Shown here: one piece after another, positions 1 through 1,090 of the stretch | How the letters are laid out: every line of letters begins with the position of its first letter | Numbering within the stretch: the stretch's first letter is position 1 | From: Polyangiaceae bacterium | GTDB lineage: Bacteria > Myxococcota_A > Polyangia > Polyangiales > Polyangiaceae | Assembly (NCBI GenBank): GCA_029261965.1 | Contig: JAJDAH010000139.1 | Location: 1-47,939, forward strand | Direction of reading: 5' to 3' | Length of the DNA stretch: 47,939 nt | Notes under the pieces: model-generated | The model's input: only the letters and a program-made list of their open reading frames with translations | Database searches by the model: none | What the model was told of the DNA's origin: nothing | Made by a program: the position numbers and the translations under genes

Positions 1-80
1 TCGCGCGCTTGAATGCGACTCATGAGCGGCCGAAGCGCGCGGATAGCTTCGAGGGAAACCTGCTTCACTTCCAATGCCAT
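1..80 (-). CDS. four helix bundle protein (23S rRNA intervening-sequence protein family), 5' end only
   Basis: Only the first 26 codons are in the window. The frame starts MALEVKQVSLEAIRALRPLM, and a Shine-Dalgarno GGAGGT (complement of 85-90) lies 4 nt before the ATG. The N-terminus matches what I know of small four-helix-bundle proteins of the 23S rRNA intervening-sequence (S23/IVP) family, which are common in myxobacteria and related to the Avd accessory protein of diversity-generating retroelements. Their role as stand-alone genes is not established. The gene reads out of the left edge. A perfect 17-bp hairpin and a 1-kb repeat region lie directly upstream. The identification rests on a short N-terminus, so it is moderate. 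Confidence 0.6.
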   Translation of the reverse strand, partial: MALEVKQVSLEAIRALRPLMSRIQAR

Positions 81-138: not shown

Positions 139-301
139 TCGAAGCCCCACGGCGTGAAGCCCGCCCCTTTCCCAAGCTCTCGCCCCTCCATCTCCGTCCA
201 CCTCCTTCCCCGCGAGCCTGGAAGCGCCAGTGCTAGCGAAGCTGGCGCGCGCTTGCCCCGTGCCGATTCAACGGCGCGCTGCGCCGAACCGAAACTTCAC
301 G

Positions 302-414
302 ATCACCTCCACCGTCACGTTCACGTCACCGGCGCGTTCACCTTCACCTTCACCTTCACCTTCACCTTCACCGTCACCCTCACGCCCACCGTCGCGAGCA
401 CCCTCACCTTCGCC
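302..414. repeat. degenerate hexamer array (TTCACC)n
   Basis: Six exact TTCACC units run from 337 to 372. Degenerate units (GTCACC, CTCACG, CCCACC, CTCACC) extend the array on both sides. All frames read as low-complexity Ser-Pro, Thr-Phe or Gly-Glu runs, so the open frames here are artefacts. The region 139-610 holds no convincing gene. Confidence 0.85.
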
Positions 415-610
415 GGACGTCGCGCGGGCGCGCAGTTGCGTCTGCTCTTCTTCGCGCGAGTGACAACCGTTACCCGTCCGCCCTTGCGCGGTAGGCCCCG
501 ATGGCCGCGTCTTCAGTTGCTGCGCTATCTGTTCCCGACCTTCGAGGAGACGCGCCCGTTCCCTCTCCGTGGGCCCGGTCAGGCCCGGTCCCCCCTCCTG
601 GCGCGCGGCG

Positions 611-718
611 AAAAAAACATGTGCCCCTAAATCCAACTCAGCGTTGGATTTGATGGGGCTTGGACGTCCAAGTGGGTCGAAATCCAATGCTCAGTTGGAT
701 TTGGGCCGACATGTTTTT
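611..718. repeat. nested palindromic element A
   Basis: The outer arms AAAAACATGT (613-622) and ACATGTTTTT (709-718) are perfect inverted repeats. Inside are two hairpins that are near copies of each other: 629-651 (9-bp stem AAATCCAAC, loop tcagc) and 680-702 (8-bp stem AAATCCAA, loop tgctcag). At the centre is a perfect 14-bp palindrome CTTGGACGTCCAAG (659-672). The whole unit is one large imperfect palindrome with two side hairpins. No coding signal was found. Confidence 0.85.
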
Positions 719-729
719 CGTCCCGCGCT
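704..729. repeat. 26-bp direct repeat, copy 1
   Basis: The core GACATGTTTTTCGTCCCGCG recurs identically at 984-1009. Both copies are followed by a similar GC-rich spacer ending in GCTCGCCGGCGGGGG. The left part of this copy overlaps the right outer arm of palindromic element A. Confidence 0.9.
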
Positions 730-765
730 CTTTTCTCTCCGTGGGTGCGTGAGCTCGCCGGCGGG

Positions 766-873
766 GGGAAGCATGTGCCCTGGAATGTGACTGAGCGCGA
801 CATTTTGGGGGGCATGCCTACCCATGTGGTCTGAAATGTGGCGTTCGCTCTCATTTCATGCGGGATGCTTCCC
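766..873. repeat. nested palindromic element B
   Basis: It has the same plan as element A with different sequence. The outer arms GGGAAGCAT (766-774) and ATGCTTCCC (865-873) are perfect inverted repeats. The central palindrome is GGCATGCC (811-818). Inner hairpins lie at 784-804 (AATGT/ACATT) and 832-858 (TGAAATG/CATTTCA). Architecture is kept while stem sequences differ from element A, which suggests selection for structure. Confidence 0.75.
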
Positions 874-910
874 GTCGCCCGCGACGTGCAAACGACGGCC
901 GCTCCCGTTC

Positions 911-978
911 GTCACATCCACATCCACATCCAGGTCCACGTCCACATCCACATCCACGTCCACGTCCACGCCCACGCC
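911..978. repeat. degenerate hexamer array (RTCCAC)n
   Basis: About eleven hexamer units (ATCCAC, GTCCAC, GCCCAC) run in tandem. Translated, they give alternating Val-Asp, His-Pro or Thr-Trp runs typical of repeat artefacts. The array sits between palindromic element B and the second copy of the 26-bp direct repeat. Confidence 0.85.
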
Positions 979-983
979 CCTTT

Positions 984-1009
984 GGCCGACATGTTTTTCG
1001 TCCCGCGCT
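984..1009. repeat. 26-bp direct repeat, copy 2
   Basis: Identical to 704-729, with a 280-bp period. It is followed by a GC-rich spacer and then a left-half relative of the palindromic elements (about 1050-1090: GTGTGCCC, a short TCGA/TCGA hairpin, GCATGCC). That half copy ends at the stop codon of the leftward MBL-fold gene. Confidence 0.85.
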
Positions 1010-1090
1010 GGTTTCCTCGCCGGGGGCGCGTGGGCTCGCCGGCGGGGGAGCGTGTGCCCTCGACTGTGAGCGATCGAAGAAAGCATGCCG

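Follow-up and report, generated by a model that had tools for sequence, protein, structure and literature searches.

Why do two 108-bp palindromic elements with one plan and different stem sequences lie side by side next to a gene of the S23/IVP family? The question is raised at the left edge of the window (the whole stretch analysed, 47,939 nucleotides), where an earlier note had described two elements, each with inverted arms at its ends, a pair of inner hairpins and a palindrome at its centre, together with a half copy, 26-bp direct repeats and two hexamer arrays. It had suggested a mobile, recombinational or structured-RNA system, possibly tied to the four-helix-bundle gene at the contig edge. 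The elements, here called A and B, are probably non-autonomous, dispersed double-hairpin mobile elements with a REPIN-like layout, whose mobility we infer.

Layout of the locus

Positions, inverted repeats, folding and covariance-model (CM) matches agreed in placing two 108-bp elements with the plan described (Table 1). The CM matches covered 612-719 (A) and 766-873 (B), the inverted arms were detected at 603-651/680-728 in A (I1, 80%) and 755-805/834-884 in B (I2, 73%), and both elements folded far better than shuffled sequences on the + strand (z of -9.5 and -5.8 respectively). The two hexamer arrays were located, as were the 26-bp direct repeats with a 280-bp period (704-729 and 984-1009). 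These repeats belonged to a stretch of about 90 bp duplicated locally (701-790 to 981-1069, about 86%) and comprising the right end of A, the spacer and the left end of B, so the “half copy” ending at 1090 was not an independent half element: related sequence was present there, but as a degenerate partial duplicate of 701-790.

Module M, a second dispersed repeat, showed no unusual folding; it flanked elements on one side or the other, or stood by itself (C150, C388 and C63:1602). Two things account for the 26-bp repeat and the hexamer arrays: a patch duplicated locally and another family of repeats. Since the flanks of several A-type copies share the hexamers and module M, yet M and the element also occur separately, the window is a mosaic of at least three kinds of repeat at a contig edge.

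Table 1. Coordinates of the features in the window and of two genes near elements at other loci
Feature	Position	Strand	Remarks
S23/23S rRNA IVP-like gene, 5' end (26 codons), cut by contig edge	1..80 (coding 80..3)	-	Outside the element
CTTCAC-type hexamer array	295..383	+	
Module M, second dispersed repeat	395..605 (approx.)	+	17 genome matches, some without element
Element A, 108-bp double hairpin	611..718	+	A-type stems AAATCCAAC...GTTGGATTT; R1 CM 120.8 bits, E=1.3e-28
Element A, outer inverted arms	618..720 (approximate span)	+	ACATGTGCCCC left, GGCCGACATGT right; inverted repeat I1
Element A, hairpin 1	629..651	+	Sequence; family covariation
Element A, central palindrome CTTGGACGTCCAAG	659..672	+	Sequence; helix 3 of the covariation plan
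Element A, hairpin 2	680..702	+	Centre 51 bp from hairpin 1; sequence and spacing measurement
Element B, plan as in A, other stems (GAATGTGAC...)	766..873	+	R1 CM 98.7 bits, E=1.5e-22
CACGTC/CACATC hexamer array	913..976	+	
Degenerate partial duplicate: A right end, spacer, B left end	981..1090	+	981-1069 vs. 701-790, 86%
DUF559 genes near elements	L066 429-785 (own C219); L145 2684-3226 (G081 C373)		

The family in the host genome

The host assembly (9.6 Mb, 480 contigs) was searched with blast and covariance model R1, built mainly from A-type copies; a second model, R2, was built from 28 own copies. R2 detected 30 full-length loci in this assembly, almost every one of them exactly 108 bp long, and beyond these a poorer copy (C187:528, detected with R1) and a single half unit (C463:4446) were found. 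The stems ranged from AAATCCAAC/GTTGGATTT (A-type) to AAATGTT/AACATTT, GAATGTGAC and others, and two copies stood in tandem at C313 (119253/119389).

Copies were mostly intergenic (65 of 70 outside ORFs) and lay in 22 tandem, 16 convergent and 9 divergent gene contexts with no significant excess at the 3' side of genes, counts which are approximate because genes were called by a crude codon-usage score. The neighbours of copies elsewhere in the genome were unrelated genes for metabolism, transport and signalling, and among the neighbour genes examined no transposase, recombinase or other shared gene was found beside the copies. Several A-type copies had long flanks in common, up to about 700 bp and including hexamer arrays and module M, so some of the spread took place through larger segmental duplication; other A-type copies (C277, C339 and C42) had the element alone in common. 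Many copies lay close to contig ends, a few hundred bases away at most (C45, C437, C187, C63, C277, C42 and others in the host), probably because the repeats break the assembly. Several of the genomes are incomplete drafts or MAGs, in which copies at contig ends may be undercounted.

Distribution among relatives

R1 matched none of 58 relatives, and R2 gave weak matches in three. Model R3, which combined the own copies with these weak matches, detected multi-copy families in 4 of 193 relatives: G023, G081, G068 and G184 (elements of 109, 106, 105 and 108 bp respectively), the last of which belongs to another order and was outside the training set of the model. The stems were GAATCACAC/GTGTGATTC in G023, AAATGCTCAC/GTGAGCATTT in G081, CGAATCG-type in G068, and GATCACAC/GTGTGATC and AACGAGACG-type in G184. 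The second stem type of G184, AACGAGACG...CGTCTCGTT (L120, L124, L125 and L127), had the same plan as the GATCAC type. The distribution was patchy: the remaining relatives (about 190) gave 12 matches only, single and weak (E from 3e-4 to 0.04), which is close to the count that chance would give at E <= 0.05.

The copies of G184 matched one another by plain blastn, and blastn similarity within a genome was confined to the element in G184 and mostly so in G023. Identity among the copies of one genome, in four genomes, fell from 0.54-0.76 inside the element to 0.29-0.35 outside, and no target-site duplication above background was detected at any boundary shift. The element is a discrete unit of about 105-109 bp, dispersed to unrelated sites. 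At two loci (L140, 2535-2643; L149, 2498-2602) a third tandem unit followed the element copy, suggesting that the unit of about 51 bp can form longer arrays in G023 and G068.

A DNA pattern scan of 84,980 genomes gave one match, in a Clostridia MAG, which was taken as chance; the locus had no R1 match. The same scan of viral contigs gave no match, the plasmids and phages searched contained no element, and a partial literature search found no description of such elements in myxobacteria.

Conserved geometry and covariation

The spacing between hairpin centres, measured on copies with both hairpins well formed, was 51.0 bp in the host, 52.0 in G023, 50.0 in G081, 51 in G184 and 50 in G068; both length and spacing were fixed within each genome. 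Two pairing schemes were compared: a four-helix plan (outer stem, hairpin, central palindrome, hairpin) and a single giant foldback. For the 28 own copies, each scheme exceeded all 500 shuffles in covariation score and in cells paired. With ten representatives drawn from several stem types, the plan with four helices fitted somewhat better (74.3% paired, covariation 0.519, two-sided change in 40 of 45 base pairs) than the giant foldback (69.9%, 0.457 and 39 of 49 pairs respectively), pair counts which lean towards structure because the members from other genomes were found with a model that contains it. Control values, against 0.519 for the plan, were 0.215 for shuffled sequences and 0.12-0.19 with the partners slid; the blast-level repetition within each genome is independent support. 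The median folding z over the copies was -5.6. Pairing was conserved through wholesale change of the stems, both among the own copies and among the ten representatives, which supports the earlier proposal that structure is kept while stem sequence changes.

Nature of the elements

Of the systems suggested beforehand, a mobile or structured element remains the likeliest class, the RNA reading being weaker. Each element is composed of two palindromic units of about 51 bp in tandem, with a junction palindrome and inverted outer ends. An enzyme acting in trans would copy the element without target duplication, recognising its folded, probably single-stranded hairpins, as suggested by analogy with REPINs (PMC3116915) and with TnpA-REP chemistry (PMC8266576); the stem sequence may drift or co-evolve with a genome-specific enzyme, with the geometry held. 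The tandem copies at C313 and the half unit at C463:4446 resemble the behaviour of REP doublets (PMC3116915) and support mobility, while about 30 copies are few for a REP family, which argues against it.

Two candidate drivers were rejected. The host genome encoded three Y1_Tnp genes, with no element within about 1.5 kb of them, which speaks against a RAYT/Y1 driver. In two genera, DUF559 (Vsr-like) endonuclease genes lay close to an element, at distances of 43 and 68 bp; 30 DUF559 loci were scanned and only the one at C219 had an element, and such genes were abundant in the element-free genomes G012 and G008 and absent from the incomplete G184, a mismatch in distribution from which the adjacency is probably due to chance.

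More tentatively, the family may represent a class of mobile DNA defined by structure: double hairpins of fixed geometry (length 105-109 bp, centre spacing 50-52 bp) able to spread inside a genome and also among distantly related genomes belonging to one class. A non-RAYT enzyme would recognise them by shape and spacing, leaving the sequence free to change completely.

Three other explanations are weaker than mobility. It is rather unlikely that the copies are protein-binding arrays in double-stranded DNA (gyrase or nucleoid-protein sites, as in some BIMEs) retained for chromosome structure. Dyads 25.5 bp apart and hairpin centres about five helical turns from each other would let dimers bind in register, and the centre spacing of 50-52 bp in all five genomes fits this, as do AT-rich motifs with a periodicity of roughly 10.4 bp, weakly above a symmetric null (160/5000); but stems wholly different between and within genomes are unlike a fixed protein site, and the elements were present in only about 5 of 194 genomes.

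Strong folding and covariation would also be expected of a transcribed structured RNA (a 3'-UTR element or small RNA) under selection at the RNA level, and G-U exceeded A-C mispairs in 21 copies vs. 5. That excess is expected from a G-rich strand alone, so this asymmetry, confounded by G-richness, was discarded as a test of RNA versus DNA. The element is nearly symmetric, with the reverse strand folding almost equally well in most copies, no significant 3'-gene excess was seen in the contexts given above, and no Rfam match reached the gathering score; a function as RNA is therefore unlikely.

All four arms differ in concert when A-type and TGTT-type copies are compared, with local and long-range pairing both preserved. 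This is what arm-to-arm correction predicts, in which quasi-palindrome template switching during replication, and not function, keeps the arms of old neutral repeats complementary. Such repeats would not keep total length and spacing constant over dozens of copies, nor recreate one plan in five genomes, which makes this origin quite improbable.

The S23-like gene proved to be an occasional neighbour. Its 26-codon fragment had no Pfam or NCBIfam match of its own, and its assignment follows from 58% identity over 36 amino acids to a full-length protein of the relative G007 which is a clear PF05635 member; the adjoining S23/IVP gene of the earlier note is in this sense real, but only its 5' end is within the window. 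A paralogous 5' end was found at C42:23285-23569 (a contig end), where the element is truncated. A perfect 17-bp inverted repeat with a 7-nt loop (98-138 in the window) lies immediately upstream of the gene and is kept nearly identical at the C42 paralogue, suggesting that this hairpin belongs to the leader of the gene. Among about 30 copies genome-wide, only the window locus and the C42 contig end had an S23-like neighbour. Co-occurrence with four-helix-bundle genes, which the earlier note had put forward as a check, was contradicted by the unrelated neighbours of the other copies, and with it the functional tie; no systematic adjacency, as expected of an S23/Avd or DGR-associated class, was found. 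That the elements belong to a four-helix-bundle (S23/Avd) or DGR-like system, an idea first suggested from the S23-like 5' end about 530 bp from element A, is hardly credible, given some 29 other copies with no such gene seen nearby and the single other PF05635 match in the genome, a weak one (C182, E=5.7e-5), on a contig lacking elements.

For mobile double hairpins, the mover, if found, would be an enzyme that recognises shape; if there is no mover, the question becomes how arm symmetry and length can persist over such a time. In both cases the family can be searched for with the covariance model.

Comparison with known systems

Integron attC sites, recognised as folded single strands, conserve structure while their sequence varies, and have one hairpin and fixed core sites. 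The likeness to the elements described here is structure over sequence and the difference is two hairpins instead of one; no integrase or cassette array was noticed, and the three-palindrome plan makes membership of attC unlikely. The mitochondrial double-hairpin elements of Allomyces are smaller than the 108-bp family. As far as the papers citing them describe them (PMC5910586, PMC2800124), they are similar in having two adjacent hairpins, in being dispersed and in a suggested mobility with unknown driver, and different in being organellar.

MITEs and small intergenic repeats such as ERIC (RU-1, 127 bp; PMC2759123) are likewise short (about 100-130 bp), non-coding and dispersed, with inverted ends. 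The family described here has the inverted ends but lacks a target-site duplication, no candidate parent transposon sharing its ends was found, and the conservation of structure extends beyond the ends to the interior.

The closest likeness in layout is to REPINs or REP doublets (BIME-like; PMC3116915, PMC3733652): two palindromic hairpins that can fold back together over about 100 bp, a scattered and mostly intergenic distribution, genome-specific sequences, tandem copies and singlet remnants. Unlike REPINs, the units were longer (about 46 bp, with centres 51 bp apart) and in direct orientation, a conserved run of G lay 3' of the hairpin, there were about 30 copies instead of hundreds, and the plan was conserved across an order boundary despite different stems. 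No RAYT/Y1 HUH transposase flanked by the element was found in the host genome. The unpaired GTAG or CGTC tetranucleotide at the palindrome end was also lacking as a family feature: GTAG was present in 0 of 26 own copies and had no fixed position elsewhere, and only 7 of the 26 had CGTC at a constant place at the end. Sequence, as tag plus stem, is what defines the bacterial palindromic repeats known so far, and a RAYT usually goes with them; here plan and spacing survive in five genomes while about eight stem types replace one another, a turnover that would leave programs searching for repeats by sequence with nothing, or with small families that look unrelated.
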